From the NCBI GenBank assembly GCA_031265345.1, contig JAISCU010000245.1, positions 1 through 15,011 on the forward strand: a stretch of DNA of 15,011 bases, in the 5' to 3' direction. A program made the position numbers and the translations under genes. How positions within the stretch are numbered: the stretch's first letter is position 1; each line of letters starts with the position of its first letter. Positions 1 through 14,463 of this stretch are shown in pieces. The DNA is from Bifidobacteriaceae bacterium. GTDB lineage: Bacteria; Actinomycetota; Actinomycetes; Actinomycetales; WQXJ01. The notes below the pieces were generated by a model. That model was not told where the DNA came from, made no database searches, and saw only the letters and a list, made by a program, of their open reading frames with translations.

Positions 1-458
1 AGACGCCAACCCGTGTTCCTCCGCGCAACCGGCGCGCCGCTTGACCAGAAAGCGGTGCGGGTGGGTCCCATTTGGCGGCAAGGACTCGTCTTCGGGCATA
101 GACGCGGCGCGCGCCCCGACCGGGAAGTGGACCGGAGACTTGTTCGACCAGAAAGTCGTCTGGAGACTTTTTGGTTGAGCCGATCACGGCTCGGGAGGCC
201 GGGCGGAAAGTGGAATGGAGACCGGTTCGACCAGAAAGTCGTCTGGAGACTTTTTGGTTGAGCCGCTCGTGGTTCACGCGGCTGAGGTCGCGCCAGGGCT
301 GTTGCGATTCGGGTACTGCGGATTGCATGGTACTGTGGATTCAGCAAGAACGGGGGCTTAGTGGACAGCGCATGGCTTTTCGGGGGTGTAGCCTGGCAAT
401 GGCGCGGCCCCGGAGCACGCGGTCACCCAAGTCGCTGAGCGGAGCAGAGGGGCACACC
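1..458. other. Intergenic region upstream of the lipoprotein operon
   Basis: I see no convincing complete gene here. A + strand frame from base 3 reaches a stop at 42-44 and could be the basic tail of a gene entering from the left, but it is too short to judge. The stretch 124-265 holds a direct repeat listed separately. Between 266 and 458 there are loose -10-like hexamers (TACTGT at 331, TAGCCT at 389) and a TGGACA at 362, but no pair has acceptable spacing, so no promoter for the operon is called. Confidence 0.5.
124..265. repeat. Two direct copies of a hairpin-forming element, 83 bp apart
   Basis: Bases 142-182 and 225-265 are identical over 41 bp, and weaker similarity extends about 18 bp further upstream of each copy. 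In each copy ACCAGAAAGTC (147-157; 230-240) can pair with GACTTTTTGGT (165-175; 248-258) around a 7-nt loop, with one G-U pair in RNA. A second, mutually exclusive stem is CCAGA/TCTGG (148-152 with 159-163) followed shortly by five T. The copies sit about 200-320 bp before the first lipoprotein start. They may be regulator sites, a leader structure or an interspersed repeat. A shorter GACCAGAAA match is at 43 and another at 2829. Confidence 0.8.
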
Positions 459-1457
459 ATGAGACACCGCCGATCAGTGATCGGGCTAGTTAGCGCGGCC
501 GCGTTGGCGGGAGCCGCCCTGGGCGGTTGCACCGACGGCGGAGTCGCCACGCTACGCGGCAAGAATCCGGCTGAGTTGACTGAGATGGAACGCGCCAAGC
601 TGATGGCCGCGTGTCTCGCAGACGCCAGCATCGGCACCCGCGTCTATGCCGTTGGCGGAGACGACCACAAGCCGGAAGTCGAAATCGACACTGACCAGCC
701 GTACACGCTGAGCTTGACGCCGGACTACGGCGTGATCGGCTTCGGAGGCGAGACTTCGAGAGAACAGCAGATCTGGTATGACCGTTGGATCGAATTGACC
801 GCGAAATACGACCCGACAGCCGCCGTCGACTACGGTGGCACCGCCGCAGACGAGGACGCCGCCCACCACTCTGTGCCGTACCTGTTCATCGAGGACGAAG
901 ACCACAGCGAGACGCTGCAGAGGTGCCTCGACGAATCCCACTACGCACCACCGGACAGTTTCATCGATCCGGCAATCGAATTGGGCCAGAAGCGACTCGA
1001 CGCAGAGGCCACCGTGCGGTGGCTCGAGTGCGCCCGCGCGAACGGGTATCCCAATCTCAAAGACCCGGCGCCGCCGAAAGCCGATCAGTCCGAAACTTGG
1101 CCCAAGGCAGTCCTCCCAGCCGAGATCACCGAGGACGCTCTGCGCGCCCTCCTGGCGCGCTGCCCCAATTTCGACCCGGCGTACCGCGCGGCTGCCGATC
1201 AGGAGCGAACCGAACATCCGCGCGACTACACGACCGAGCCCAATTACACCGAGGGCATGCGCAAACTGGCCGAGAAGTACCCCGGATACATCGACCCGAA
1301 AATCGGGTTCGACGTGCCAGGCTACGACGGCCAGGCCTGGACCGAAGAGGCCGAGGCGGTCTCCGAAGCGGAACGCGAACGGCTCAGTCGACTCGAACAG
1401 ATTCTCGGTGGCGCCGCGGACGACTACTGGGAGCCCCAAATCCCGGAGAGCCGTTGA
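459..1457 (+). CDS. Cysteine-rich lipoprotein, paralogue 1 of 4 (lp1)
   Basis: Predicted secreted lipoprotein of 332 residues, function unknown. The signal peptide has a basic n-region (MRHRR), a hydrophobic core and a lipobox LGGC with the lipidated Cys at 24. Just after it comes the short VATL-type motif shared by the paralogues. The mature part has four cysteines at paralogue-conserved places: C52 (AACLADA), C156 (RCLDES), C191 (ECARANGYPNLKDP) and C235 (RCPNFD), which could form two disulfides. The C191 motif resembles the CMRxNGVPxFPDP signature I recall from actinobacterial lipoproteins beside HlyD/MacAB genes. A TDQPYT motif (78-83) and KYPGYIDPKIGFD near the C-terminus are also shared. 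ATG at 459 is chosen because it starts the signal peptide and follows GAGGGG (447-452). It is the first gene of the locus; lp2 starts 124 bp on. Confidence 0.87.
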   Translation: MRHRRSVIGLVSAAALAGAALGGCTDGGVATLRGKNPAELTEMERAKLMAACLADASIGTRVYAVGGDDHKPEVEIDTDQPYTLSLTPDYGVIGFGGETSREQQIWYDRWIELTAKYDPTAAVDYGGTAADEDAAHHSVPYLFIEDEDHSETLQRCLDESHYAPPDSFIDPAIELGQKRLDAEATVRWLECARANGYPNLKDPAPPKADQSETWPKAVLPAEITEDALRALLARCPNFDPAYRAAADQERTEHPRDYTTEPNYTEGMRKLAEKYPGYIDPKIGFDVPGYDGQAWTEEAEAVSEAERERLSRLEQILGGAADDYWEPQIPESR

Positions 1458-1481
1458 CATGTCATCCGCCCGTCTGGAGCA

Positions 1482-1499
1482 ATCATCCTCCGGGATGAT
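1482..1499. other. Small hairpin between lp1 and lp2
   Basis: ATCATCC (1482-1488) and GGATGAT (1493-1499) form a perfect 7-bp stem around a TCCG tetraloop, 25 bp after the lp1 stop. No T-tract follows, so it is not a classical intrinsic terminator. It could tune mRNA stability or relative expression of lp1 and lp2. Confidence 0.5.
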
Positions 1500-1581
1500 C
1501 CACAGGCCTATCAGCACAAATAAGGTGGCTGGCAGGGGGAGTTCTGAGCGCCCCACCGGCCTTAACGTGAAGGGGAAACCG

Positions 1582-2763
1582 ATGAGACTATCGAAGGCGC
1601 TGATCGTCGCCGCGGCCGTGGGAGCACTGGCTCTGGCGGGCTGCTCGTCCAAGAATCAAGTTGCCAGCTTGGGCGGGAAGGGCGAAGGCAAAGTCGAGGT
1701 CACTCAAGCCGAAGCAGCCAAGGACATGGTCGAATGCCTCCAAGAAGCCGACATCGAAGCATCCCTCGACGAGTGGGACGCCGAGAACGTCCGGTTCAAC
1801 CTGGACACAGACGAGCCCTACACCATGCGGATGCGGGACGGTTCCGGAATGATGAGCTCAGGCGCGAACGAAGCCGAATGGGAGGCGAACGAAAGACGTC
1901 TCAACGAACTCGCGTCCAAGTACGACCCGGACCTTCTTGAGACGTCCGTCGTGGTCGAGGGCGGCGGAGCCGTCGAGATGGGCGACGTCACGGTGCCGAT
2001 CGAAGACGGGGACGAACCGAGCGAGGAAGGGTCCGCCGAACCGGCCGAGTCCGATCCGTCCGCGAGCACCGCGCCAGAGCCCGAACCGGAACCAGATGAA
2101 CCCGAAGACGCCGAACCCACTGACATTCCCCAGGATTCAACCCCCTATTTGATCATCGGCGACCATGATTACACCGAGGCTTTTGTCAAGTGCCTCGATG
2201 AGACGGGTTACACCGAACCGGAATACAAGACCGATCCGAAGGAGGAAGTCGCCCAGAAGCAGAGGCAGCTCGACTCCACGATCGAGTGGATCAAGTGCGC
2301 CCGTGACAACGGCTATCCGAACATGAAGGATCCCGTTGCGGCAATCGCGGATGATTGGCAAACCAACCCGATGGCGGTCCTGCCCGGTGACATCACCGAG
2401 ACAGCTCTGCGCGAACTGTTGACCAAATGCACGAACTTCAACGAAGCCGATCACGAGGCCGCTGACAGGGAGACGATGGCCAGGTACGAGTCTGGCGACA
2501 TCCCGAACACCCGAGCGGGTTACGCCGAACTAGAAGCCGAAATCGCCAAGAAGTATCCGGGCTACATCGATCCGGCGATCGGGTTCGACTACCCGGGCTA
2601 CAACGGCGATTACACCAATATGACCGGCCAGGACGAAGGCCCGGACGCCGAAGCCCAATGGGAACGCCTCAACAAGCTCCAGGAAATACTGTGGGAGGCC
2701 CAGGAGGCCTACTCGGAGCGCATGCGGGACCAATGGGAAGAGGCTCAAGACACCGAGGAATAA
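1582..2763 (+). CDS. Cysteine-rich lipoprotein, paralogue 2 of 4 (lp2), with acidic linker
   Basis: Predicted secreted lipoprotein of 393 residues, the longest of the four paralogues. It has a clean lipoprotein signal (MRLSK, hydrophobic core, lipobox LAGC with Cys21), then VASLGG. The conserved cysteines are C52 (ECLQEAD), C204 (KCLDETGY), C239 (KCARDNGYPNMKDP) and C283 (KCTNFN). The TDEPYT motif is at 76-81 and KYPGYIDPAIGFD near the C-terminus. Residues about 139-187 form an acidic, Pro- and Ser-rich linker with PEPEPEP runs, much longer than in the other paralogues and placed between the two conserved blocks. The ATG start follows AAGGGG (1571-1576). A GTG at 1567 in frame would add five residues but has no better ribosome site. 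lp3 follows after 80 bp. Role inferred only from context: an envelope partner of the ABC transporter downstream. Confidence 0.87.
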   Translation: MRLSKALIVAAAVGALALAGCSSKNQVASLGGKGEGKVEVTQAEAAKDMVECLQEADIEASLDEWDAENVRFNLDTDEPYTMRMRDGSGMMSSGANEAEWEANERRLNELASKYDPDLLETSVVVEGGGAVEMGDVTVPIEDGDEPSEEGSAEPAESDPSASTAPEPEPEPDEPEDAEPTDIPQDSTPYLIIGDHDYTEAFVKCLDETGYTEPEYKTDPKEEVAQKQRQLDSTIEWIKCARDNGYPNMKDPVAAIADDWQTNPMAVLPGDITETALRELLTKCTNFNEADHEAADRETMARYESGDIPNTRAGYAELEAEIAKKYPGYIDPAIGFDYPGYNGDYTNMTGQDEGPDAEAQWERLNKLQEILWEAQEAYSERMRDQWEEAQDTEE

Positions 2764-2843
2764 TGCCGCCGCGTCCAGAAAGCCCTGGCTCGACCGATGG
2801 GCGCAGTAGAACGGATCGCAGAATCGACCAGAAACGGACCACA

Positions 2844-3980
2844 ATGACCAAGAGGGGCTGGATCACGCCAGGCGCCATGGCCGGCGTCCTCGTGATCGGA
2901 GCGGGGGCAGCCATCACTGCGACGGCCTGCACGGCGCAGGACGAGGGCCGCGTGGCGACACTCGACGGCGGCGAGAGCGGAAGTGGCAGCGTCGAAGAGC
3001 GAGCCGACCAGGCCGAGGCCACGCTTGAAATGGTCAAGTGCCTGCAAGAGGCCGGGATCTCCGAAGCCGTCGAATACGAGGCCGGCACCGACCAGGCTTC
3101 GTTCGGGATCGAGACGGACGAGCCTTACACCATGCGGGTCGACCAGACGGGAGCGAGTTACGACTTCGGCGGCGCGGACACTTCTGACGAGTCGGACCAG
3201 GCCGAATGGAAAGCCGTCCTACAACACTTGGAAGAACTGGCTTCCGCCTACGACCCGAGTCTGGCGACGGCATCGGACGCGGGCAGTGGCGAATCAGACA
3301 CAAACCCCGCCGCAGGAACGGCGCCACTGGTGTTGCCGGAAACCGAGCCCGACGACGGAGTGCCGCCGTACCTGTTCATAGGCGACCGCGACCACACCGA
3401 GGCGTTGACCGAATGCCTCGATGAGACGGGATACACAACGCCCGTGGCGCCGCCGTCCGATCCGGACCAGGAGTTGGCCGACAAACAATTGGCGCTGATA
3501 CCCACCCTGGCCTGGGCCGAGTGCGCCCGGGAGAACGGGTACCCGAACCTCAAGGACCCCGACCCGCCGGTCGCGAACGGCTGGAAGACCGGGATCTCGA
3601 TGGTCTTGCTGCCCACGAACATGACCGAGCAGGCGCTCAGGGACCTCATGGCGGCCTGCCCGAATTTCGACGAGGAAGCCACCCGGTCCTTGGACCACGA
3701 AATGGACGCCGCGACGGCGGACGGGTCGTGGAATGACGACGCGTCCCCGCTGTACCGCCAACTGTTGGAGAAGTACCCGACCGCCAATCCCCCCAGAATC
3801 GGCTTCGACCTGCCGGGATTCGGGCCGGACACAGGGGGCGGAGTCGTTCTGCCGGATTTCGAGTCCGCCGACGCGGAGACCAAGAACGTCATGCGGCTTC
3901 GGGATATCCTGCACGAACGTTTCAACGCCTACACCGATCAACGAATCGCGGAATTGAAAGAGATGGACCAAAATGACTAA
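2844..3980 (+). CDS. Cysteine-rich lipoprotein-like protein, paralogue 3 of 4 (lp3)
   Basis: Secreted protein of 378 residues, paralogous to lp1 and lp2. Conserved cysteines are C66 (KCLQEAG), C191 (ECLDETGY), C227 (ECARENGYPNLKDP) and C272 (ACPNFD), with TDEPYT and VATL motifs. The putative lipobox ATAC (Cys29) is atypical because position -3 is Ala rather than Leu or Val, so lipidation is less certain. The first 23 codons closely match the start of the next gene, the adaptor (MTKRGWIT against MTKKGWIT, then AGVLVIGAGAA in both), which suggests a duplicated or exchanged signal segment. The ribosome site is weak (CGGA at 2835). The stop TAA (3978-3980) lies inside the adaptor start: the genes overlap by 8 bp, so translation is probably coupled. 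Function unknown. Confidence 0.85.
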   Translation: MTKRGWITPGAMAGVLVIGAGAAITATACTAQDEGRVATLDGGESGSGSVEERADQAEATLEMVKCLQEAGISEAVEYEAGTDQASFGIETDEPYTMRVDQTGASYDFGGADTSDESDQAEWKAVLQHLEELASAYDPSLATASDAGSGESDTNPAAGTAPLVLPETEPDDGVPPYLFIGDRDHTEALTECLDETGYTTPVAPPSDPDQELADKQLALIPTLAWAECARENGYPNLKDPDPPVANGWKTGISMVLLPTNMTEQALRDLMAACPNFDEEATRSLDHEMDAATADGSWNDDASPLYRQLLEKYPTANPPRIGFDLPGFGPDTGGGVVLPDFESADAETKNVMRLRDILHERFNAYTDQRIAELKEMDQND

Positions 3981-5400
3981 GAAGGGCTGGATCACAGCAA
4001 GCGCCATCGCAGGCGTTCTAGTGATCGGGGCGGGGGCGGCCACTTGGTGGGGCGTCGCCCGGTCCCGCGACAATGACGAGGACACCAAGAAGGTCCGCAC
4101 CGCCACGGTGGAGCGCACGTCGCTGGCCTCCGGGGTGGAGATCATGGGCACTCTCGAGTACGGCACGGCCGAGGAACTGGCCGGCGCCACGGGGATCGTC
4201 ACCAAGGTCCCGGAGGCGGGCTCCACCCATCAGGCGGGCGAGCCGCTCCTGGAGATCGAGGGCAACCCGGTGTTCCTGCTGCACGGCGCGATTCCGCTGT
4301 GGCGGGACCTCGGCGCGGGCATGTCCGGCATCGACGTGGACACCCTCAGAGCCGCTCTGGTCGAGTTGGGTTACAGCGCCGGCAATACCGCCGCCGCCAC
4401 CCCGTACGATGCCGCTCTGGCAGGCGCTATCGACGCCATGTACGCGAAGGGCGGGTACCCAGCCCCTTCCACCAGGCCCGATTCCATCAAGGCCCGCGAC
4501 GAGGCGAACCAGGAGTTGGCCGCCGCCCGCGAGGCCTTGGCCGCCGCCGAACAGGCCCTGCGCCAAGCCCGCCAAGGCCCCGGCAAGAAGGATCTGACGG
4601 ACGCCAACAACGCCATCGCGGCGGCAAAGCGAGCGCTCAGCGCGGCCCAGGGCTGCACCGCCCAGCAACGGGCCGACAGCCCCGAACCGGGCGGCCCCTG
4701 CGACGTCGCCGCCGCCCGCGAGGCCTTGGATTCGGCCGAGGCGGGCAAGGCGGACCTGACCGCGCCGATGGACGCCTCGGCGGAATCGGCCGCCGTGGCG
4801 AGCGCCCAGACCTCCCTGACCGCAGCCCAGTTGAAAGCCGACCAGGCAGCCCTGTCCACGGTCGGATCGAAGGACATCCTGCTGATCCCGACCACCGAGA
4901 TGCGGGTGGACCAGATCAAGGCCAAGATCGGCCAGAGCGCCGAAGGCCCGGTGGTGACCTGGACCTCGACCACGCTCGCTGCCACGGCGGACTTGACCGA
5001 CTCGCAGCGCAAGCTGCTGGTGTCCGGCGCCGCGGTCGAGGTCGCCCTGCCGGACGGCACCATCGTGGCCGGGCTGGTCGCGGACATCTCCGCCGCCCGC
5101 CAGGATCAGAACACCGGCGAGATGCTCCCGGCCCGCGCCCGCATCGACATCGAGGACCAGGCCACGCTGGCGGGCAACGGGGTCAGCGGCGTGACCATCA
5201 CCATGATCGAGGAGGAGGCCGAGGGAGCACTGGTGGTGCCGGTCACCGCCCTGCTCGCCCTGTCCGAGGGCGGCTACGCCGTCGAGTTGCCGAACGGCAC
5301 TCTGATCGGCGTCGAGGTGGGGCTGATCCAGGACACCCGCGCCCAGATCATCCCCACCACCGGCGACCTCGAAGAGGGCGACGAGGTGGTGATCGCGTGA
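3973..5400 (+). CDS. MacA/HlyD-like periplasmic adaptor with peptidoglycan-binding-type domain
   Basis: Membrane-anchored adaptor (membrane-fusion-type) protein of 475 residues, probably bridging the ABC transporter to the cell wall or exported substrate. One N-terminal membrane segment (about 9-28) has no lipobox. A barrel/lipoyl-like part begins near residue 42 (VRTATVERTSLASG, later GIVTKVPEAGSTHQAGEPL). Residues 107-155 (IPLWRDLGAGMSGIDV, LGYSAG) look like the PG_binding_1-type insert usual in actinobacterial versions. Two Ala-rich helices (about 173-225 and 245-295) form a coiled-coil hairpin whose tip is bracketed by C228 and C243. The C-terminal barrel domains end in [12 protein letters not shown]. 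The ATG overlaps the lp3 stop by 8 bp; the TGA overlaps the GTG of the ATPase gene. The family usually works with MacB-type transporters; the cargo cannot be told from sequence. Confidence 0.9.
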   Translation: MTKKGWITASAIAGVLVIGAGAATWWGVARSRDNDEDTKKVRTATVERTSLASGVEIMGTLEYGTAEELAGATGIVTKVPEAGSTHQAGEPLLEIEGNPVFLLHGAIPLWRDLGAGMSGIDVDTLRAALVELGYSAGNTAAATPYDAALAGAIDAMYAKGGYPAPSTRPDSIKARDEANQELAAAREALAAAEQALRQARQGPGKKDLTDANNAIAAAKRALSAAQGCTAQQRADSPEPGGPCDVAAAREALDSAEAGKADLTAPMDASAESAAVASAQTSLTAAQLKADQAALSTVGSKDILLIPTTEMRVDQIKAKIGQSAEGPVVTWTSTTLAATADLTDSQRKLLVSGAAVEVALPDGTIVAGLVADISAARQDQNTGEMLPARARIDIEDQATLAGNGVSGVTITMIEEEAEGALVVPVTALLALSEGGYAVELPNGTLIGVEVGLIQDTRAQIIPTTGDLEEGDEVVIA

Positions 5401-6068
5401 CTATGGCCCATCTCGCGCTGCGCGAGGTGTCCAAGGTCTACCCCACCAAGCCGCCGCTCGCCGCCCTCAAGGATGTCAACCTCGACATCGAGCGGGGCGA
5501 GCTGGTGGCAGTCGTGGGGCCGTCCGGCTCCGGCAAGACCACTCTCTTGTCGCTGATGGGGCTGTTGGACACTCCGACGGACGGTGAAATCTGGATCGAC
5601 GGCGTCAACTCGGCCGCGCTCAGCGACGCCGGCCGTTCGCGCACCCGTTCCGACCAGGTCGGCTTCGTGTTCCAGCAGTTCTATCTGCTGCCCAGCCTGA
5701 CGGCCCGCGACAACGTCGCCTCGGGGATGCTCTATCGCGGGCTCCCGGCCGCCGAGCGCCGACAGCGGGCCGATGCCGCGCTCGACCGGGTCGGCCTGGC
5801 CGCGCGCGCGAAGCACCGGCCCGGCGAGCTCTCGGGCGGCGAGCAGCAGCGGGTCGCGATCGCGCGGGCCATCGCCAACGAGCCCGCCGTGGTGTTCGCG
5901 GACGAGCCGACCGGCGCGCTCGACCAGGCCTCCGGACGCCGGGTCCTCGAATGCCTGGTCGAAGCCAATCAGGGCGGCGCCACTGTCGTGGTCATCACCC
6001 ACGACCCCGGCCTGGCCGCGAACTTCGACCGCCAGATTCACGTGCTAGATGGCGAGGTGACGGGATGA
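5397..6068 (+). CDS. MacB/LolD-type ABC transporter ATPase
   Basis: Cytoplasmic ATPase of 223 residues that powers the FtsX-like permease encoded next. All motifs are present: Walker [10 protein letters not shown] (41-49), Q-loop with Q93 (VFQQFYLLP), signature LSGGEQQ (145-151), Walker B VVFADEP followed by the D-loop GALD (165-176) and the switch His202 (ITHD). The length is normal for the MacB/LolD class of stand-alone ATPases. The start is a choice: GTG at 5397 overlaps the adaptor stop (GTGA) and lies 7 nt after GAGGTGG (5383-5389), while the in-frame ATG at 5403 is 13 nt away, so GTG is preferred; the difference is two residues. The stop overlaps the permease ATG by 4 bp, indicating coupled translation in one operon. 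Confidence 0.95.
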
Positions 6069-7492
6069 GACTCCCCTTCCGCAAGAACCGAGGTCAGGCT
6101 GACCCGGCCCAGGACGGCCTGAGCATCGACGCGCTGCCCGGCGCGGACTTGGGGGACACCACCGAATACGCCGCCGATGCCGTGGTCCCCGGCTTCGGCG
6201 CGCCCGGCGGCGGTCCTTTGGGCGGCGGGGCGCCCGGCGGCGGCGCGCTGGGCGCCGGCAGCGCCGGGCGGCGCGGCCGGAACCGACCGGGCGGCCCGAA
6301 GCTGAAACGGCGCCGGATGTCCGTCCGCGACGTCTTCGCGACCGCCTTGCTGGGGCCGCGAACCCGACTCGTCAGGACTGGCCTGTCGGCGCTCGGAATA
6401 GCCATCGGCATCGCCGCCCTGGTGGCGTTGCAAGGTATTCCCGCCACGGTGCGGGCGGAGATGAAAGCCGAGATGGACCGGCAGGGCGCGAACCTGCTGG
6501 TGGTCTACCCCGGTGGCGCGGACCCGTGGGACATGTCGGCGGAGAAGACGCCGCTGCCGGAGACCGCCCCGGAAATGATCGCCCGCATCTCGCCGGTGCA
6601 GCATGTGCTCGCCCGGCGCGACCTGGTCGACGTGGGCGTGTACCGGAACAACTTCATCCCGGCGGGGCAATCAGGCTCGATCTCGGCGGCGATGGCGGAC
6701 GGCGACCTGCTGGGCGCGCTGAACGTGGAGTTGGCGGACGGCGCCTGGTTCGACGCGGCCTCGCGGGCGCTGCCGACGGTGGTGCTGGGCGACGGCGCGG
6801 CCCGTCGCCTTGGCGTCACTCCGGGCGAACGGATCTGGATCGACCGGCACTGGTGGGCTGTGATCGGCGTGCTGAACCGGTTGGATCTGGCCCCGGAGAT
6901 GGACTCGACGGCGTTCCTGGCGCCCGAATACGCCGGCGCGATGTACCCGGAGACGCCTATCGCCTCGATCTATGTGGCCTCCGAACCCGGCCAATCGGCG
7001 GCGGTGCGGCGGGTCATCCCGGAGACCACCAACCCAGCCGATCCGGAGGGCGTGGACGTCACGAGCCTGTCGGAGTACTACGAGGCGGGAGAGATGTTGG
7101 ACACGATGCTGATCTACTTGTCGCTGGGGTTGGGCGGGCTGTCGTTGCTGATCGGCGGGATCGGGATCGCTAACACCATGGTCGTGGCCGTGATGGAGCG
7201 CCGGGGCGAGGTTGGCCTACGGCGGGCGATGGGCGCGCGATCGGGCCAGATAGCGCTCCAGTTCGTGCTCGAAGCAGGTGTGATCGGGCTGATCGGCGGC
7301 ATTTTCGGGGTCGGGATCGGCGCGTACGCGACCTACATCTACGCCGCCCTGTCCTCGAGCGTGTTCGCGGTGCCCTGGTGGATAGTGGGCGCTGGCCCGG
7401 TGCTGTCCATCGTGATCGGCGCGATCGCCGGGCTCTACCCGTCGCTGAAAGCCGCCCGCCTCTCCCCGACCGTGGCCCTGCGAGCCGTCTGA
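6065..7492 (+). CDS. MacB/FtsX-type ABC transporter permease
   Basis: Inner-membrane permease of 475 residues with the MacB layout: one membrane helix (about 103-122), a large extracytoplasmic domain (about 125-345), then three helices (about 348-371, 405-427, 438-460). The FtsX-family signature follows helix 2: NTMVVAVMERRGEVGLRRAMGA. The C-terminus PSLKAARLSPTVALRAV is typical. Unlike the usual MacB, about 90 cytoplasmic residues precede helix 1, including a Gly/Pro-rich stretch (43-65) and a basic cluster (RRGRNRPGG, KLKRRR) ending at 84. The ATPase is a separate gene, as is common in Gram-positive bacteria. The ATG overlaps the upstream TGA (ATGA) and follows GAGGTGA (6054-6060). With the adaptor it forms a tripartite-like exporter or mechanotransmitter that has no TolC in this cell type. 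Confidence 0.94.
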   Translation: MRLPFRKNRGQADPAQDGLSIDALPGADLGDTTEYAADAVVPGFGAPGGGPLGGGAPGGGALGAGSAGRRGRNRPGGPKLKRRRMSVRDVFATALLGPRTRLVRTGLSALGIAIGIAALVALQGIPATVRAEMKAEMDRQGANLLVVYPGGADPWDMSAEKTPLPETAPEMIARISPVQHVLARRDLVDVGVYRNNFIPAGQSGSISAAMADGDLLGALNVELADGAWFDAASRALPTVVLGDGAARRLGVTPGERIWIDRHWWAVIGVLNRLDLAPEMDSTAFLAPEYAGAMYPETPIASIYVASEPGQSAAVRRVIPETTNPADPEGVDVTSLSEYYEAGEMLDTMLIYLSLGLGGLSLLIGGIGIANTMVVAVMERRGEVGLRRAMGARSGQIALQFVLEAGVIGLIGGIFGVGIGAYATYIYAALSSSVFAVPWWIVGAGPVLSIVIGAIAGLYPSLKAARLSPTVALRAV

Positions 7493-7523
7493 GCCTATGT
7501 GACCATGTGAGGCGGCTGCGCTG

Positions 7524-7619
7524 ATGATCCAGAAACCCGGCCAAGTTCGTCCGGATCGCCCCGACCGTCGCTTCGCGGATCGGCGGAACTTATCTGACCG
7601 AGCGAGGAGATCGCGTTGA
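7524..7619 (+). other. 31-codon upstream ORF duplicating the lp4 leader
   Basis: An ATG at 7524 opens a 31-codon frame whose TGA (7617-7619) overlaps the lp4 ATG by one base (TGATG). Its start, MIQKPGQVRPDR, resembles the lp4 start MVQEPGPARPVR, and a later RRNLSDR resembles RRTLSVR. At DNA level 7522-7559 and 7617-7654 match at about 30 of 38 positions, 95 bp apart, and a GAGG ribosome site precedes each. It is either a decayed duplicate of the lp4 5' end or a coupling leader ORF. Whether it is translated is unknown. Confidence 0.4.
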
Positions 7620-8665
7620 TGGTTCAGGAACCCGGACCTGCTCGTCCGGTTCGCGCAGTCCGTCCGGCCCGCAGAACCTTGTCGGTGCGTATCACGCCGA
7701 CCGCGCTGATGGTCTTGACCGTGGTCGCCGCGCTGACAGTTGGCGGCTGCGCTGGTGGCGGGGATGTGGTGTCGTTGGGCGGCGACGGCACCGCTGAGGC
7801 AACCGCTGGCGCCCACCAATACGAGAACGCCGTGGCGATGGCCGCGTGCCTGTCGGACGCGGGCGTACCGGCCGTGACCGTCAGGGCGGAAGAAGCGCCC
7901 GACCAGGCCTGGCTGGTCCTTGACACCCCGCATTCGCTCCAGAGCTTGTTGCCCGATGGGACGAGCATCTGGATGCAGTCCGCCGAATCGATGTCGCTCG
8001 ATCTTTCCAGCAAGGAAATCGATCAAGTGTGGGAAGTCCTCGACCAACACCCAGACTACGGCCAGCCGGTCGAGGGCCAGGCCGACCGGTACCATCCCTT
8101 CTTGATCATCGCCAGCACCGACTACACGCCCGAACTGGTCGAATGCCTCGACCAGACGGGATACTCCAATCCCGTCATCCCGCCCATCGACCCAGCCGAA
8201 GAGTTGGCGCAGAAGCAACTCCGGGCGGAGGCGTCCGCCCGATGGGCCCAGTGCGCCCGCGACAACGGCTTCCCGACTACCAAGGACCCCGCCGCGCCGA
8301 AGGCCGATCAGTTCCTGAGCGAACCCGCCGCCCTCCTGCCGGTCAACATCACAGAAACACAGCTGCGGGTTCTGTTTGAGACGTGCAGCCCCCTCGACAC
8401 CGAGGCCCAGGCCGCCCAGGACGCCGCCAAGAACGAACTCGGCGACAACGCCACCCAAGCCGAATGGGACCGCGTGGTTGAGGCCAACCCAGTCATCGAC
8501 CCGCTGATCGGCATCGACGCGCCGGGCTGTCGCGGGATCTGGGGCGAGATCGCCGATCCCGAGGCGGACGCCATCTACGACACCCTGCTCCGGATTCTGC
8601 ACGACTACCGGAACGCGGACGATCCCCTCCTCAAGAGCGTGCACGACTCCCGGACCCAAGGTTGA
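7619..8665 (+). CDS. Cysteine-rich lipoprotein, paralogue 4 of 4 (lp4), divergent
   Basis: Predicted lipoprotein of 348 residues, the most divergent member of the family. It carries an unusually long basic n-region of about 25 residues, then a hydrophobic core and lipobox VGGC with Cys44, then VVSLGG. The family cysteines are C77 (AACLSDAG), C176 (ECLDQTGY), C212 (QCARDNGFPTTKDP) and C256 (TCSPLD). An extra C304 (PGCRG) replaces the tyrosine of the PGY motif seen in the others. The TDxPYT motif is changed to LDTPHS. ATG at 7619 follows GAGGAGA (7604-7610); TTG at 7616 would add one residue. A shorter form from GTG at 7685 would give a standard signal peptide but has no ribosome site. It follows the permease by 126 bp, filled by the duplicated leader, so probably belongs to the same transcript. 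Confidence 0.85.
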   Translation: MVQEPGPARPVRAVRPARRTLSVRITPTALMVLTVVAALTVGGCAGGGDVVSLGGDGTAEATAGAHQYENAVAMAACLSDAGVPAVTVRAEEAPDQAWLVLDTPHSLQSLLPDGTSIWMQSAESMSLDLSSKEIDQVWEVLDQHPDYGQPVEGQADRYHPFLIIASTDYTPELVECLDQTGYSNPVIPPIDPAEELAQKQLRAEASARWAQCARDNGFPTTKDPAAPKADQFLSEPAALLPVNITETQLRVLFETCSPLDTEAQAAQDAAKNELGDNATQAEWDRVVEANPVIDPLIGIDAPGCRGIWGEIADPEADAIYDTLLRILHDYRNADDPLLKSVHDSRTQG

Positions 8666-9224
8666 GCCATCCTGAGGCCAGCGGAGCCCACCCCCGCCGG
8701 GCGGCGAGCCTCCCCGCGAAGCGATGCCAGCCCCATATGGCCGGGTACCAGCTCGCCTGACTCGCACCCGGAAGGCGACGAGATCGACAAATCCGCTCGC
8801 TCTCGATGATCAGCGGCCCAAGAGAAAGACAAATTCCCTGGCACTCGTGCGCGACATCCAGGAAATTCGTCTTTTCAGAGAACCTCGCGAAATCGACATC
8901 CAGGAAATTTGTCTTTCCGTCGGCGGCACTCGCGGCTCGGGAACACGAAACCCCAGGTCAGCGGTCCGCCCAAAGAAGGGCACGGTCCAAGAAAGACAAA
9001 TTCCCTGGCACTCGATAATCTGCGGCTCAATAGAAAGACAAATTCCCTGGCACTCGTGCGCGAAAGCTGGGGAATTTGTCTTTTCAGGCGGAGAATCACC
9101 ACGAATCGCATCGCGCGCCGACCAGCATCATGCGTTAGGCCGGGCGCGCCACCGCCAGGCGTCCGACCTAGCCCCGAACGAAACCGGCGGGACGCGGACG
9201 GGCCGACCGAGCGGCATCGTGCAA
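8666..9224. other. Convergent intergenic region, repeat-filled
   Basis: The gap between lp4 (+) and the PPK2 gene (-) holds no credible gene: open frames here are by-products of the repeat at 8781-9084. CCGGGT (8741-8746) and ACCCGG (8766-8771) could pair but with a 19-nt loop and no T-tract. No clear intrinsic terminator for either gene was found, so the repeat hairpins may serve as 3' structures for both. Confidence 0.5.
8781..9084. repeat. Array of 42-bp units in direct and inverted orientation (BIME-like)
   Basis: The core AGACAAATTCCCTGGCACTC occurs forward at 8823-8847, 8990-9014 and 9032-9056 (25-bp core, identical), with a decayed copy at 8781-8805 (19 of 25 match). The inverse form CCAGGAAATTTGTCTTT occurs at 8858-8875, 8900-8917 and 9067-9084 with small changes. 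Neighbouring same-orientation units are 42 bp apart and each forward-to-inverse pair is offset by 35 bp. The layout is F-F-R-R (8781-8917) then F-F-R (8990-9084), so each block can fold as a long hairpin. This resembles the mosaic arrangement of REP/BIME elements. No transposase is nearby in the window. Confidence 0.85.
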
Positions 9225-10094
9225 CTACGGCTTGGTCTTCTTGACGGGCTTACGCTCCAAGGCGGCGGCGACATCCGGGACGTAGTGGTTCTCGACGTCG
9301 CGCGGCGGCCGGTAGTAGTTCTGGCGCGGCGGGCGGTCGGGGATGGCGAGCGGCTCGGGCTCCAGGTGCTCGTAGGGAACCGAGGAGAGCAGGTGCGCGA
9401 TCACGTTGATGCGGGAGCGCTTCTTGTCCTCGGATTCGACCGTGTACCAAGGCGAGGTGACCGTGTCGGTGGCGAGGAACATGTCGTCCTTGGCCCGCGA
9501 GTACTCCTCCCAACGGGTGATCGCGGCCATGTCCATGGGGCTGAGCTTCCAACGCCTGAGCGGGTCGTCCAAGCGGTTGCGGAAGCGGCGCTCCTGCTCC
9601 ACGTCGCTGACGGAGAACCAATACTTGCGCAACATTATCCCGTCCTGGATGAGCAGGTCCTCGAACAATGGCGCCTGGCGCAGGAAGAGCGTGTACTGCT
9701 CCCGCGTCGAGAAGCCCATGACCTGCTCAACTCCGGCGCGGTTGTACCAGGAGCGGTCGAAGATAGTGATCTCGCCGGCGCTCGGCAAATGCTCTATGTA
9801 GCGCTGGAAATACCATTGGCCCTGCTCGCGCGGGGTCGGCTTGGGCAGCGCCGCGATATGGCAGTAGCGCGGGTTCAGGTATTGCGTGATACGGGCTATC
9901 GCGCTGCCCTTCCCGGCAGCGTCGCGCCCCTCGCAGATCACGATCAAGCGCTGCCCTTCCCGCCTGATCCATTCCTGCATGTTCACCAGTTCGGCCTGCA
10001 GGCGGTAGAGCTCCTTTTCATAGGCACGGGTTGAAAGCTTGGCGGGCTGCTGGGAGTGGGGTTCATGGTTGGGGATCGGCGGCGTTGCGTTCAT
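9225..10094 (-). CDS. ppk2: Polyphosphate kinase 2 (PPK2)
   Basis: Cytoplasmic enzyme of 289 residues that transfers phosphate between polyphosphate and nucleotides. The Walker A motif GRDAAGKGS is at 56-64, and the Walker B/lid segment FDRSWYNRAGVE at 112-123, preceded by KPTPREQGQWYFQRY (85-99). The sequence features YWFSVSD, RRFRNRLDDPLRRWKLSPMD and WYTVESEDKKRSRIN fit the class I, one-domain PPK2 (ADP to ATP or GDP to GTP). Nucleotide preference cannot be read with certainty. The ATG at 10094 has no Shine-Dalgarno site but lies 6 nt after a TACCCT -10-like hexamer, suggesting a leaderless mRNA. It is divergent from the gtrA-like gene and convergent with lp4, so it is probably transcribed alone. 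Confidence 0.95.
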   Translation of the reverse strand: MNATPPIPNHEPHSQQPAKLSTRAYEKELYRLQAELVNMQEWIRREGQRLIVICEGRDAAGKGSAIARITQYLNPRYCHIAALPKPTPREQGQWYFQRYIEHLPSAGEITIFDRSWYNRAGVEQVMGFSTREQYTLFLRQAPLFEDLLIQDGIMLRKYWFSVSDVEQERRFRNRLDDPLRRWKLSPMDMAAITRWEEYSRAKDDMFLATDTVTSPWYTVESEDKKRSRINVIAHLLSSVPYEHLEPEPLAIPDRPPRQNYYRPPRDVENHYVPDVAAALERKPVKKTKP

Positions 10095-10100
10095 GGATCA

Positions 10101-10106
10101 AGGGTA
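10101..10106 (-). promoter_or_regulatory. -10 element for a leaderless PPK2 transcript
   Basis: Read on the - strand, TACCCT fits the actinobacterial TANNNT -10 pattern and ends 6 nt before the ATG at 10094, so transcription would begin at or next to the start codon. The absence of a ribosome site supports this. No good -35 hexamer was found, so the call is tentative. Confidence 0.4.
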
Positions 10107-10124
10107 GTCCTGGGCATCCCGCTT

Positions 10125-10169
10125 GGAGCACGGCGTTCCGGAGCACGGCCTTTGGGGCACGGCCTTTGA
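10125..10169. repeat. Three imperfect 15-bp tandem units
   Basis: GGAGCACGGCGTTCC, GGAGCACGGCCTTTG and GGGCACGGCCTTTGA follow each other at 10125, 10140 and 10155 in the divergent PPK2/gtrA intergenic region. They lie just upstream of the PPK2 -10 and could be binding sites or simple slippage. The rest of the 232-bp gap has a 7-bp stem-loop at 10221-10242 (GGTCGCG/CGCGACC). Confidence 0.55.
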
Positions 10170-10307
10170 GGCCTCGCCGCCCCTGAGCATGACCGGGCCA
10201 CCGCGCGGCGGTGTTAGTGTGGTCGCGGCGCTTCGCGCGACCGGGCCGGGCAGCGCCTCGACAGGCAGGCCGACCCGACCGGCGCGCACTCGCCAACGAT
10301 TGTCGAC

Positions 10308-10313
10308 TAGATT
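10308..10313 (+). promoter_or_regulatory. Possible -10 hexamer before the gtrA-like gene
   Basis: TAGATT (10308-10313) fits TANNNT and lies 13 nt before the GTG start, with GAGGGGG (10316-10322) in between as ribosome site. An alternative is TAGTGT at 10215-10220, which would give a longer leader containing the 10221-10242 hairpin. Neither has a good -35. Confidence 0.25.
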
Positions 10314-10326
10314 CTGAGGGGGCCAC

Positions 10327-10929
10327 GTGGGAGTCGTCGAGGGGTTCTTCCACAAGGTGACCCGTTGGCCCTTCATCCGCCAGGTGCTGCTCTACGGGTT
10401 GTTCGGCCTCACCGCCGCAGGCGTCGACTTCGGCCTGTTCCGCCTCCTGCGTCAGACTGGGATGACGCTCTTGGTCGCGAACGTGGTCTCGGTCAACGTC
10501 GGCATCGCCATCAGTTTCGTGTGCAACGCCTTCCTCAACTTCCGCCGCACCGACACCCTGGCCCGGCGCGCGCTGACGTTCTTCTGCGTCGGCTGGGCCG
10601 GCCTGGCCCTGTCCTCGGCGATCCTGGCGGTCGGCGTCCAGCGCATGGACCTGGACGAGACGTGGGTCAAAGCGGCTTCCATCGTGGTCGTGGCGGCCTT
10701 CCAGTTCACCTTGAACAAGTTCGTCACCTTCCGGGTCGCCAAGAAATCTTTGCCCGATGCCCCACCCCACGGAATCTCCTCGCTCCGCCCGGATCCTCCG
10801 CGCGGGCCCCGGAACGCCCCCGCGCTCCCGACCGCTTTGCCCGACCCCGGCGGGGTTCCCGCCATTTCCACCAGCGCCGACGCCGGCGCCGCCGCCGTTT
10901 CCAACCCACCGCCGGGAGCTTGTCCATGA
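10327..10929 (+). CDS. GtrA-family membrane protein (polyprenyl-sugar flippase type)
   Basis: Small membrane protein of 200 residues. Four membrane helices (about 17-38, 47-69, 82-104, 114-131) and the family motifs are visible: YGLFGLTAAGVDFGLF in helix 1, CNAFLNFRRTD (66-76) after helix 2 and LNKFVTFR (129-136) after helix 4. GtrA proteins are thought to move polyprenyl-phosphate-linked sugars across the membrane. A Pro/Ala-rich tail (about 141-200) without predicted structure is longer than usual for the family and may be dispensable. The GTG start follows GAGGGGG with short spacing. The stop TGA (10927-10929) overlaps the ATG of the glycosyltransferase gene (ATGA), so the two are translationally coupled and probably act on the same sugar carrier. 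Confidence 0.9.
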   Translation: MGVVEGFFHKVTRWPFIRQVLLYGLFGLTAAGVDFGLFRLLRQTGMTLLVANVVSVNVGIAISFVCNAFLNFRRTDTLARRALTFFCVGWAGLALSSAILAVGVQRMDLDETWVKAASIVVVAAFQFTLNKFVTFRVAKKSLPDAPPHGISSLRPDPPRGPRNAPALPTALPDPGGVPAISTSADAGAAAVSNPPPGACP

Positions 10930-11696
10930 CTGACCGCATACCTGAACCCATGCCTGACCCCGTGGCCCACGAAGAACCGAAAGAACCTGCGGGCCAGGTG
11001 CTCTACGCCGTGATCCCGGCCTACAACGAGGCTGAGAACATCGAGGCGCTGGTCGCCGAATGGTTGCCGGTGATCACCGCCGCCGGGCCGGACGCGCGAC
11101 TGGTCGTCATAGACGACGGCTCCAAGGACGACACCCTGGAACTGCTGCGAGACCTGGAGCGGCGTTCCGGGGAGGGGTTGGTGGTCCTGTCGAAGCCGAA
11201 CTCCGGCCACGGCGCGACCCTGCTCCACGGCTACCGTTACGCCCTCGACCATGGGGCTGATTTCGTCTTCCAGACCGACTCCGACCGCCAGACCGTGCCC
11301 TCGGAGTTCCCGGCCTTCTGGGAGCTGCGGGACACCGCGGCGGCGGTCATCGGCTGGCGCCGCGGCCGGCAGGACGGTTTCTCCCGCCTGATCGTGACGA
11401 AGGTGCTGAAGCTCGTGGTCCGGATGGTCTTCCGGGTCTCCGCGCCGGACGCGAACTGCCCCTTCCGCCTGATGGCCGCCGGGCCCCTGCGCCAGGCCCT
11501 GGCCACCATCCCGCCCGGCCACAACCTCGCCAACGTGCTGGTCGTGGTGCGCCTGATCCAGCAGGGCCGCACGATCCGATGGATCCCCGTCACGTTCCGT
11601 CCCCGCCAGGGCGGCGTCAACTCGATCAACATCCCCAAGATCGTCGGGATCGGCCGCCGCGCCTTACGCGACTTCTGGACCCTCCGCCGCCGCTAA
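10926..11696 (+). CDS. Family 2 glycosyltransferase, DPM1-like
   Basis: Cytoplasmic glycosyltransferase of 256 residues, likely transferring a sugar from a nucleotide sugar to polyprenyl phosphate. GT2 fold motifs: VIPAYNEAENIEALV (29-43), VVIDDGSKDDT (60-70), GHGATLLHGYRYAL (94-107), the metal-binding DSD (118-120, in FQTDSDRQ) and GWRRGRQDGFSR. No membrane helices are seen, unlike GtrB proteins with C-terminal anchors, so it is closer to the short dolichol-phosphate mannosyltransferase type; the sugar is unknown. The ATG at 10926 overlaps the gtrA stop and has GGGAG at 10914-10918. The same open frame extends upstream over gtrA without biological support. The gene ends just before a repeat-rich convergent gap. 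Confidence 0.9.
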   Translation: MTDRIPEPMPDPVAHEEPKEPAGQVLYAVIPAYNEAENIEALVAEWLPVITAAGPDARLVVIDDGSKDDTLELLRDLERRSGEGLVVLSKPNSGHGATLLHGYRYALDHGADFVFQTDSDRQTVPSEFPAFWELRDTAAAVIGWRRGRQDGFSRLIVTKVLKLVVRMVFRVSAPDANCPFRLMAAGPLRQALATIPPGHNLANVLVVVRLIQQGRTIRWIPVTFRPRQGGVNSINIPKIVGIGRRALRDFWTLRRR

Positions 11697-11704
11697 ACCG
11701 GGGG

Positions 11705-11750
11705 CGGTTCCTCGCCTAGTCAGGGGACGGTTCCTTGCCTAGTCAGGGGA
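11705..11750. repeat. 23-bp tandem duplication (GGGGACGGTTCC-type)
   Basis: Bases 11705-11727 and 11728-11750 are the same 23-bp unit with one difference (CTCGCC against CTTGCC), followed by CAGACGCGAG. The GGGGACGGTTCC/GGGGACAG core resembles interspersed motifs I have seen around many bacterial genomes, sometimes linked to REP-associated tyrosine transposases. That link is from memory and not shown here. It lies 8 bp after the glycosyltransferase stop. Confidence 0.8.
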
Positions 11751-11895
11751 CAGACGCGAGCCATTACCCCCAGAATTGTGGCCCTTCGGCACAAGTGGCG
11801 ACGGCCCACCTTGTGCGGGTGGCTGACTTGCGAAAAGGCCCTATCGCGCCTGGTCAGCGTCCAGGCAAAACGGGGACGCCCCCAACTGGGGTTCC

Positions 11896-12374
11896 TGTCC
11901 GCAAATGGCTTCAACTGGCGGTCGGGCCGAGTTCCAGCCAATTGTGGACATCCGTGCCGGATGCCGCGTTGTCGGCAACCCGCGTTATCGCAGGTGGACG
12001 GGCCTGCGGCATCGGCGCACCTCCCAGCGGTTGTCCGCAAATGGCTTCAACTGGCGGTCGGGCCGAGTTCCAGCCAATTGTGGACACAGCCGCCCGATGC
12101 CGCGTTGTCGGCAACCCGCGTTATCGCAAGTGGACGGGCCTGCGGCATCGGCGCCCATCCCGGCGGTTGTCCGCAAATGACTTCAATTGGTGGCCCGGCC
12201 GAGTTCCAGCCAATTGTGGACACCCGTGCCGGATGCCGCGTTGTCGGCAACCCGCGTTATCGCAGGTGGACGGGCCGGCGGCATCGGCGCACCTCCCAGC
12301 GCTTGTCCGCAAATGGCTTCAATTGGTGGCCGAGCCGAGTTCCAGCCAATTGTGGACACAGCCGCCCGACGCCG
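11896..12374. repeat. 136-bp tandem repeat, three full copies and a partial fourth
   Basis: TGTCCGCAAATG marks the unit start at 11896, 12032, 12168 and 12304: an exact 136-bp period with few substitutions and no indels. The fourth copy ends near 12374, about 18 bp before the stop of the - strand membrane protein gene. Each unit has a 55-bp part bounded by imperfect inverted ends (TGTCCGCAAATGG and CCAATTGTGGACA) and an 81-bp part with a GTTGTCGGCAAC hairpin. Copies 1 and 3 share CCGTGCCGG where copies 2 and 4 have ACAGCCGCCC, so a 272-bp dimer may have been duplicated. Open frames across it on both strands reflect the period, not genes. The stretch 11751-11895 has no recognised feature. Confidence 0.93.
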
Positions 12375-12392
12375 TCGCCGCGGCATTCCCCG

Positions 12393-14066
12393 TCAGCGGC
12401 GGTCCCGAGCCCCGCGGAGCCGCGTCAAGCAGGCCCAGGCGGGCGCAGCCAAACAGAAGACCGCAGGCATGAACAGGTAGCGGTAGCGGGGCTGAACTTC
12501 GATGGCGAGGTGGATCAGCGCGTAGCCGGCTACGAAGCAGGCCAGGAACGTGGCCAGCGCGCCCCAGCGGCGGTCCCGGTTCAGAAGCACCACGCCCCAA
12601 GCGGCCATGAGGATGATCGGCAGGAACACCCCGCGCTCGCCCAGAACCAGGTAATGCCCCAATGTGTAGGTGCGCGAGTCCGGCAGCCGGTACTGGTCGG
12701 AGGCCCCGAACTGGGGCCAATAGAGATAGCGGGCGGACTCGTTGCGTGCCCACATGGAGTTGACCTGACGGGCCAAGACCCGGTGCCAAGTCTGCGGCAG
12801 TTGGCGGATGTCGCGTTCGAGGGCGGCGCGGGCGATCTGGCGGGCGTCCGGCTTGGGGATTGGATCGTAAGCGCCAATGTCGACCAGGTCCTGCCGCCCC
12901 TGGGCGGTGTTCCCCTGCAGACCGAAGACGAACTTCCATTCCGGGAGATTGTTGGAAGCCCCGGCGGGGTTGATGCCGCTGGCTTTGATCGCGCCGTCGG
13001 CGCCTGCGCCCACCAGGCCGTAGGCCGCCACGACCACAACCGCCGCCAGCGCGGACAGCCCCACCGGCCGCCAGCTCGACCGGGCGCCACGGCGCATGAC
13101 TGGCGCCAGAACCAGCGCCGCGACCAGCGCCGCCACGACCACCAACCCGGCCGGGCGGGCGAGGTTCCCCAAAGCCAGCAGCACGCCGCCCGCTGCCGCC
13201 AGCGCCCAGCCGCGCCAGTCACGCCAGGGTCGCGAGCGGCCCGCTGCCCTCGAATCCGACCCTGCCCGCCCGGCCATCAAGCCATCCGAGCCCGGCCCGG
13301 CAACCAATCCGTCCGAACCCGCCCCGGCCACCAACCCATCCGGACCCGACCCGGCCAGCAAGCCACGGGAACCCGACCAGGCCCCCAACCGCCCGACCCC
13401 GGTCAGCGCCACATAAGCCCCCAGATAGAGCAGGAAGGCCGACAGATGGTCATTCGTCAGCGCGCTCGCCTGCAGGTAGGCGCTGGGGTAGACAAGGTAG
13501 GCCACGGCGGCGAACAGCCCCGCCACCGCCGAACCTGTGATCTTCCGGCCGATCAGGTAGACCAGCAGGTTGGTCCCCGCCATGAAGACCGCCCCCGCCA
13601 CCAGCAGGGGAACCAGCGATCCGCCGGAGACTTTCAACATGAAGGCCTCGTAGATCGTGAACGGCGTCTGGTAGGCGAAGAAGTGCCAGTAGGCGGTGTC
13701 GGAGAAACTGAAGTCCCCTGCGTTGATCGCTTGGGCGCCTTGGTACATCATCAGGAAGTCGGACTGCTGCTCGGTCTCCAGGTGCAGCGCGAAAACGACC
13801 TTGACGGCGAAGAACACCACGAACAGCCCAACCGGCAGGACCCATTTCGGCAGCCGCGCGGATCGCCACACTCGCAGAATCGACCGGCCGACCAGCCTCC
13901 ACGCGACCACTCCGACGGCGAACGCCAGGGCCGCCGCGACCCACCACTTGGCGTAAACCCGGTAGTGGGTGAACCACACGGCGCCCAGCCCGATCGCGCA
14001 CAAGGCCCCGAACGATGCCAGCACCACGATCCAACGCACCGCGCGCCCCAGCCCCGAATCCGCCAT
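12393..14066 (-). CDS. GT-C type polytopic membrane glycosyltransferase-like protein
   Basis: Membrane protein of 557 residues with about ten hydrophobic segments. The first long loop has acidic residues (E97, E99, D103 in HLETEQQSDFLMMYQGA), the place where GT-C enzymes (GT39/ArnT-like) carry the catalytic or metal-binding acid. QPRYRYLF near the C-terminus is also typical of this group. Such enzymes take a sugar from a polyprenyl-phosphate donor and transfer it outside the membrane, so a link with the GtrA and GT2 genes is plausible though they lie on the other strand. Residues 234-270 are a Gly-rich repeat of about nine residues (GLVAGAGSD type) inserted between two hydrophobic segments. 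The ATG at 14066 is preceded by a GGGGGA ribosome site. The acceptor and sugar are unknown. Confidence 0.82.
   Translation of the reverse strand: MADSGLGRAVRWIVVLASFGALCAIGLGAVWFTHYRVYAKWWVAAALAFAVGVVAWRLVGRSILRVWRSARLPKWVLPVGLFVVFFAVKVVFALHLETEQQSDFLMMYQGAQAINAGDFSFSDTAYWHFFAYQTPFTIYEAFMLKVSGGSLVPLLVAGAVFMAGTNLLVYLIGRKITGSAVAGLFAAVAYLVYPSAYLQASALTNDHLSAFLLYLGAYVALTGVGRLGAWSGSRGLLAGSGPDGLVAGAGSDGLVAGPGSDGLMAGRAGSDSRAAGRSRPWRDWRGWALAAAGGVLLALGNLARPAGLVVVAALVAALVLAPVMRRGARSSWRPVGLSALAAVVVVAAYGLVGAGADGAIKASGINPAGASNNLPEWKFVFGLQGNTAQGRQDLVDIGAYDPIPKPDARQIARAALERDIRQLPQTWHRVLARQVNSMWARNESARYLYWPQFGASDQYRLPDSRTYTLGHYLVLGERGVFLPIILMAAWGVVLLNRDRRWGALATFLACFVAGYALIHLAIEVQPRYRYLFMPAVFCLAAPAWACLTRLRGARDRR
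13257..13367 (-). repeat. In-frame 27-bp repeat coding Gly-rich nonapeptides
   Basis: Units at 13341-13367, 13314-13340, 13287-13313 (27 bp each) and 13257-13286 (30 bp) encode RGLLAGSGP, DGLVAGAGS, DGLVAGPGS and DGLMAGRAGS. The array adds about 37 residues to a loop of the membrane glycosyltransferase. The multiple-of-three period keeps the frame, so copy number may vary between strains. Confidence 0.85.
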
Positions 14067-14138
14067 TGTGCTCCCCCACCAAAGATCTGAACGTCTCGTC
14101 GGACCGGCCGCGCCTGCCGCGCGCTGCCGTCCCCAAGC

Positions 14139-14144
14139 ACTCTA
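14139..14144 (-). promoter_or_regulatory. Possible -10 hexamer for the GT-C gene
   Basis: On the - strand TAGAGT lies about 72 nt upstream of the ATG at 14066 and fits TANNNT. No convincing -35 is seen. The same hexamer occurs on the + strand at 14384 before whiB1. Confidence 0.25.
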
Positions 14145-14342
14145 GCGGCCGCCCGGTCTCGACACGTCCATCCCGGCCCGTATGGCTCGCTTTCAGCGAA
14201 CAGATTCACGATGCCGTGCCGCCACTTCCCGAGCCCCACCGCCGCGCCACGCCCTGGGTTCCCGCCACCCGACCGTCATTTTGGGCCGTCAAAGCCGTTT
14301 TCACTATCAGCGGATTTGATTTCGGCGACACGCCCGAAAGAA

Positions 14343-14358
14343 TGTGGCGAACATCACA
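14343..14358 (+). promoter_or_regulatory. CRP/GlxR-type operator upstream of whiB1
   Basis: TGTGGCGAACATCACA matches the CRP-family consensus TGTGA-N6-TCACA at 9 of 10 specified positions. It lies 105 bp before the whiB1 start in a divergent intergenic region. In Mycobacterium tuberculosis whiB1 is known to be controlled by the cAMP receptor protein, which supports the call. It could also act on the divergent membrane protein gene. Confidence 0.5.
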
Positions 14359-14370
14359 TGCGGCAAAGTC

Positions 14371-14399
14371 TTGTCAAAATCGATAGAGTGTGTGAACCT
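14371..14399 (+). promoter_or_regulatory. Weak candidate whiB1 promoter
   Basis: TTGTCA (14371-14376) is one base from the -35 consensus. GAACCT follows after 17 nt, a poor -10. The better -10-like TAGAGT (14384-14389) has no -35 at the right distance. Its position 12 bp downstream of the CRP-like site would suit class I or II activation. Low certainty. Confidence 0.25.
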
Positions 14400-14420
14400 A
14401 TCTGACAGAAGTCATCAACA

Positions 14421-14435: not shown

Positions 14436-14463
14436 ACTGCAGTTCAAGCCTTAAGGAGTTCCA

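Follow-up and report, generated by a model that had tools for sequence, protein, structure and literature searches.

What four lipoproteins of one family do around a single transporter is the question raised by a 15,011-nucleotide stretch of DNA (hereafter the window) from a Bifidobacteriaceae bacterium (contig JAISCU010000245.1, positions 1 to 15,011). Positions 459-8665 of its forward strand hold seven head-to-tail genes: the lipoprotein genes lp1 (459..1457), lp2 (1582..2763) and lp3 (2844..3980), an adaptor gene (3973..5400), a gene for an ATP-binding cassette (ABC) ATPase (5397..6068), a gene for a MacB/FtsX-type permease (6065..7492) and a fourth lipoprotein gene, lp4 (about 7619..8665). 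All seven lie at or near the places assigned to them in a preliminary description of this DNA, and the overlaps reported there were confirmed for lp3 and adaptor (8 bp, 3973-3980), adaptor and ATPase (4 bp, 5397-5400) and ATPase and permease (4 bp, 6065-6068). Gaps of about 124, 80 and 126 bp separate lp1 from lp2, lp2 from lp3 and the permease gene from lp4. In related genomes the number of lipoprotein copies at this locus varies, but their location does not. The lipoproteins are read here, at a probability of roughly 40%, as accessory and probably ligand-capturing components of a MacAB-like ABC exporter in a monoderm bacterium.

Position of the lipoproteins beside the transporter

A search with the four lipoproteins identified five related loci, all titled 'MAG: Bifidobacteriaceae bacterium' (MAG, metagenome-assembled genome). 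The bin names of these MAGs look like those of termite-gut samples, and the source organism is presumably a termite-gut actinobacterium. Locus L002, which has one lipoprotein, shows the order lipoprotein-adaptor-ATPase-permease, followed by a PPK2 gene, a glycosyltransferase gene and a third gene that is presumably WhiB-like, no family search having given it that name. Identity to the window counterparts is 67% for its adaptor, 82% for its ATPase and 71% for its permease, and at most 38% between its lipoprotein and the window's four.

Lipoprotein matches (E-value 1e-5) were obtained in 17 of the 18 genomes of the family, with 0 to 29 per genome, these being match stretches, not genes, among the matches listed. 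Thirteen of the 18 contain a full adaptor orthologue. In G015, the start of an adaptor (first 50 residues, E 4e-7) lies at a contig edge behind two lipoproteins, and a permease orthologue is found elsewhere in that genome. Of 15 loci, from 14 related genomes and the window, 14 have a lipoprotein as the next gene upstream of the orthologous adaptor, at a gap of at most 345 bp (the largest in G009). The exception, G012, has about 1.9 kb upstream of the adaptor without a lipoprotein, and this sequence looks transposase-like by eye. Tandem copies occur in several lineages: three lipoproteins stand upstream in the window, G016 and G017, and two in G013, G015 and G003, the last with a truncated one in addition. 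The other eight loci have a single upstream lipoprotein, some on cut contigs (that of G002 starts just before its lipoprotein). The multi-copy layout is thus a recurrent one, as six of the 15 loci, window included, have at least two upstream copies. A downstream lipoprotein is present on the same strand in the window and G013, and on the opposite strand in G017.

At the level of the class, 197 genomes were also searched with profiles of the adaptor and of the lipoproteins. Matches to the adaptor profile at E 1e-10 were obtained in 57 of them (at most eight candidates scored per genome), and matches to the lipoprotein profile at E 1e-4 in four (at most ten candidates scored per genome). The three lipoprotein matches beyond G002, in G186, G145 and G059, each lie just upstream of an adaptor match. 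G186 alone matches the C-terminal module of the family (E 2.3e-7); the matches of G145 and G059 are weak and confined to N-terminal positions 1-83 (E 2e-5) and 9-65 (E 3e-5). The preliminary description had mentioned single lipoproteins with a CMRxNG-like motif beside such transporters in actinobacteria, and this was borne out. Of 29 adaptor-profile loci, 16 had a nearby open reading frame (ORF) with the motif C[MALI][RK]..[NHQ]G, and in 14 cases this came with a lipobox; the corresponding counts for control pieces were 1/57 and 0/57, a comparison somewhat weakened by the controls having been cut from related genomes and not from those of the test loci. No motif ORF was found within about 1.5 kb at the other 13 of the 29 loci.

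HHalign aligned the window family with ten short two-module proteins of this kind at 97.4% over 53 columns, and with two longer ones at 98.2% over 78 columns, in both cases in the C-terminal module only. Common to the two groups are the closeness of lipoprotein and adaptor genes (about 1.5 kb at most) and a C(M/A)RxNG...C module, which the window family carries in addition to its lipobox cysteine. They differ in that the twelve motif proteins compared are about 150-255 aa long, ten of them with two like modules, at one motif ORF per locus, whereas the window lipoproteins are about 330-390 aa long, occur in up to four copies and have a longer N-terminal half, which keeps a cysteine pair (52/156) but lacks the CMRxNG motif. 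The single-lipoprotein version looks common in actinobacteria. Because motif ORFs stand by the adaptor loci and the profiles match at the C-terminal module, a single lipoprotein preceding the adaptor was probably the ancestral arrangement, elaborated in the window's lineage.

The lipoprotein family and the history of its copies

The four window lipoproteins align end to end, lp2, lp3 and lp4 being 40, 37 and 35% identical to lp1, and Cys24, 52, 156, 191 and 235 (lp1 numbering) are invariant among them. The motifs listed in the preliminary description are present with variants, namely CLDESHY in lp1, CTNFN in lp2 and CLDQTGY, CARDNGFPTTKDP and CSPLD in lp4. Its assignment of all four to one family therefore stands. 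Lipoprotein ORFs were sampled from 80 fetched regions together with the window, L001, L002 and L004; three of 105 scored below 100 bits and were dropped, and 102, including the window's four, scored above 100 bits with a profile built from the window and related lipoproteins. The lipid cysteine and the four other cysteines are kept in 100, 101, 102, 102 and 101 of the 102, and with such scores and such conservation a chance family likeness is excluded. The five conserved cysteines suggest two disulfides, for which we infer the pairing.

A lipobox-like signal, defined by a pattern of our own, was found in 95 of the 102 ORFs, window lipoproteins included, some of the pattern matches sitting in upstream read-through and possibly being spurious. 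Cys24 of lp1 lies in the lipobox LGGC. In lp2 the lipobox is LAGC; this protein has the longest acidic linker and its top identity (46%) is to the upstream lipoprotein of G005. The weak lipobox of lp3, TATAC, passes only because the pattern was relaxed. The 5' ends of lp3 (2830..2913) and of the adaptor gene (3959-4042) form an 84-nt direct repeat at 83% identity. The lp3 signal peptide accordingly looks copied from, or converted by, the membrane anchor of the adaptor, and the repeat suggests a recent local exchange. Conservation in the lipoprotein alignment is 2.56 bits per column in 185-240 versus 1.16 in 91-140. The AlphaFold2 model of lp1 has a mean predicted local distance difference test score (pLDDT) of 78.5. 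None of lp1 to lp4 matched a Pfam or NCBIfam model above any cut-off, and eight distant lipoproteins, searched against Pfam only, matched no lipoprotein-family model above cut-off. A NUC153 match of one distant lipoprotein passes its cut-off but covers ten residues only and looks spurious.

A careful tree was made of 47 lipoproteins, 24 labelled as linked to the transporter and 23 others. In it, lp4 pairs with the downstream lipoprotein of G013 (support 100/99), which has the same position. A single clade of all four window lipoproteins was rejected (p 0.001), the group having been named after a quick tree had been viewed; a clade of lp1-3 was not rejected (p 0.38). By this phylogeny, lp4 is a separate lineage conserved in position and no recent copy of lp1-3, which agrees with the earlier remark that the four copies are diverged. 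The two G003 lipoproteins (99/94) and the three of G017 (100/100) are nearest to one another, so the arrays appear to have grown more than once, and the trees suggest repeated amplification. By eye, the sequence at 7525-7680, before lp4, looks like a degenerate duplicate of the 5' end of that gene. Mean pairwise identity is 37% for the adjacent lipoprotein (13 loci) versus 59% for the adaptor (14), 76% for the ATPase (14) and 65% for the permease (12), and the lipoprotein diverges much faster than the transporter genes. Lipoprotein distances track adaptor distances (Spearman 0.59, 78 non-independent pairs), as much as shared descent alone would give.

Transporter and neighbouring sequences

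The permease scores above the Pfam cut-offs for MacB_PCD (72.4 bits, cut-off 27) and for FtsX (74.9 bits, cut-off 25.5), the latter domain being C-terminal. With this MacB core and FtsX domain, and an ABC ATPase encoded next to it, it has the features of a MacB-type ABC permease. The ATPase (ABC_tran, 123.9 bits, cut-off 25) is a separate gene with a GTG start, an ATG at 5403 being possible. Its best NCBIfam models are MacB (210.4 bits) and LolD (208.8 bits), nearly equal and each below its own cut-off. The adaptor, probably of the MacA/HlyD type, has an anchor at its N terminus and a region predicted to be helical; its HlyD_3 score of 19.3 bits lies below the cut-off of 22.2. Its structural model has a mean pLDDT of 45.4, with helices within 169-294 mostly at about 67-87 and nearly all else below 50, and was too poor for use. 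No gene for an outer-membrane exit duct was noticed in the window, and the titles of the MAGs point to a monoderm lineage.

A PPK2 polyphosphate kinase gene (9225-10094; TIGR03707, 356.8 bits) adjoins the operon, as it does in L002, L096 and L100. The gene at 14464-14712, which has a 99% identical counterpart in L002, is presumably WhiB-like, with no such NCBIfam match. Both flanks of the operon, at 116-281 and 8781-9087, carry intergenic repeats in direct and inverted orientation (83 nt, 98 nt and 93-nt arms), which look like candidate dispersed elements of the repetitive extragenic palindromic type. A tandem repeat of 3.5 copies of a 136 bp unit (90% matches) occupies 11896-12374, between the glycosyltransferase gene and an opposite-strand ORF at 12393-14066. 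Elsewhere in the family, two further kinds of cysteine-bearing, lipoprotein-like proteins recur near lipoproteins that have no orthologous adaptor beside them: cluster c10 and cluster c23, at L112, L114, L122 and L149 and at L140, L150 and L159. By eye, cluster c10 resembles ORFs beside the adaptors in L171 and L181.

Ligand capture and its alternatives

In the favoured explanation, each lipoprotein would be anchored at the outside of the membrane through its predicted lipidated cysteine. The conserved C-terminal module (Cys191...Cys235 of lp1, CARxNGYP...CPNF) is probably a constant contact or core fold, and the more variable N-terminal domain (Cys52...Cys156) probably binds ligands, for example membrane-active peptides or other envelope compounds. 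Such ligands would be captured close to the membrane by the lipoproteins, in the way that NisI binds nisin, and then expelled by the transporter through mechanotransmission. Having several copies in tandem would broaden the range of ligands, and copies at other places in the genome may act alone or with other ABC exporters. This explanation is favoured because a lipoprotein stands upstream of the adaptor in nearly all loci, because all three distant profile matches have the same place, and because motif ORFs adjoin over half of the adaptor-profile loci and almost none of the controls. It is favoured also because three of the four genomes without a clear transporter orthologue (G008, G010, G014 and G018) have only 1, 0 and 1 lipoprotein matches, and because the lipoprotein diverges faster than the machine, its C-terminal columns are the more conserved and the arrays appear to have grown repeatedly.

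The architecture has a known likeness in lantibiotic immunity, in which a surface lipoprotein, NisI, likewise accompanies an ABC exporter, NisFEG, and acts beside LanFEG against nisin (as described in PMC4828448). No lantibiotic genes were noticed in the window. LanFEG is a different ABC type from the window transporter.

Several observations weigh against ligand capture for this exporter. Only 26 of the 102 sampled lipoproteins are linked to an orthologous adaptor (two of G015, at L109, being counted here as linked and labelled unlinked in the tree). The remaining 76 are not beside one, a share that is probably a lower bound, since many weaker matches in at least G003 and G006-G008 fall outside the sample, and to which fragmented contigs may contribute by hiding some linkage. 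In G008, with its 29 lipoprotein match stretches, the adaptor went unmatched and the permease match was weak; this genome may use its lipoproteins without a transporter of the window type, or may be an incomplete MAG. The preliminary description had staked its interpretation on paralogues that mostly accompany the transporter, and taken literally the counts from the sample and from G008 show the reverse. For the same two reasons, the lipoproteins are not solely partners of a pump of the window type. A few unlinked copies stand beside another ABC exporter, an ATPase accompanied by two proteins without a name (L004, L111 and L123, with just one of the two seen in L053), or beside a permease with two FtsX stretches (L132 and L141).

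The large number of unlinked copies weighs on the capture of ligands and on the export of the lipoproteins as cargo alike. A formulation that spans both, and that seems doubtful, has a single MacAB-like transporter of monoderm actinobacteria serving diversified lipoproteins in which the outer domain varies and the docking module stays constant; these would have been amplified repeatedly at the locus and dispersed in tens per genome, as interchangeable capture receptors or exported surface cargo.

Export as cargo is the main rival, although it is unlikely. The MacAB-like machine would extract or release lipoproteins in the manner of Aat or Lol, pushing lp1-4 and their scattered paralogues through the adaptor tube into or beyond the wall. 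One transporter with many scattered lipoproteins fits one machine with many cargoes, and the near-equal MacB and LolD scores of the ATPase (210 and 209 bits) are in keeping with this. Aat (AatPABCD) and LolCDE likewise belong to the MacB superfamily and handle acylated proteins encoded near the transporter or away from it. Aat combines MacAB- and Lol-like parts and secretes two proteins of 18% identity, with acylation demonstrated for CexE; slightly more than half of the cases have the cargo gene over 1 kb off, and slightly fewer than one in four have it within 1 kb, much as the lipoproteins here are often distant (as far as described in PMC7943197). Both systems are diderm and work with an outer-membrane protein or LolA, neither of which was noticed in the window. 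Genes for an outer-membrane channel or an AatD-like acyltransferase were likewise not noticed there, the relatives not having been searched for them. In addition, the lipoproteins of a monoderm are already outside, G008 keeps its many match stretches without an adaptor match, and a motif lipoprotein beside many separate actinobacterial transporters fits a subunit better.

Less likely again, the proteins would be general envelope lipoproteins independent of the transporter, with adjacency due to operon inheritance and tandem copies to birth-and-death drift. The unlinked majority, the truncated copy adjoining the G003 array and the internal stops in at least four of the matches listed agree with this, as do the few loci with a lipoprotein beside other ABC genes, by which no single partner is needed. 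However, 14 of 15 loci have retained the linkage although the lipoproteins have diverged strongly, distant homologues occupy the same place, and the five cysteines are kept almost without exception. A ring or tube in which lipoproteins would prolong the adaptor and stand in for an outer-membrane channel, the hetero-oligomeric complex of the preliminary description, is very improbable, no result having spoken in its favour.

The closest monoderm systems, to which the ligand-capture explanation may be compared, are Spr0693-0694-0695 of Streptococcus pneumoniae and YknXYZ with YknW of Bacillus, which likewise consist of a MacAB-like adaptor, a separate ATPase and a MacB-like permease and have been linked to peptide protection (PMC5768738; PMC5985334). 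Unlike the window, no lipoprotein array is described for them in the parts of these papers that treat the transporters, and YknW is given as a membrane protein. The earlier observation of this locus was sound, and its interpretation partly so. A single lipoprotein by such a pump was known; what appears new is a family that has multiplied beside the pump as well as throughout the genomes of the group, with a putative role. The unusual feature is that one lipoprotein family appears to have been amplified repeatedly at the locus and has also expanded genome-wide. The role of MacAB-type adaptors in bacteria without an outer membrane has been posed as an open question (PMC5985334). A lipoprotein family that adjoins such transporters, and is expanded in one lineage, would be a direct handle on that question: the adjacent lipoprotein could be probed for each of three roles, those of subunit, receptor and cargo, and the range of ligands may be readable from the diversified repertoire.
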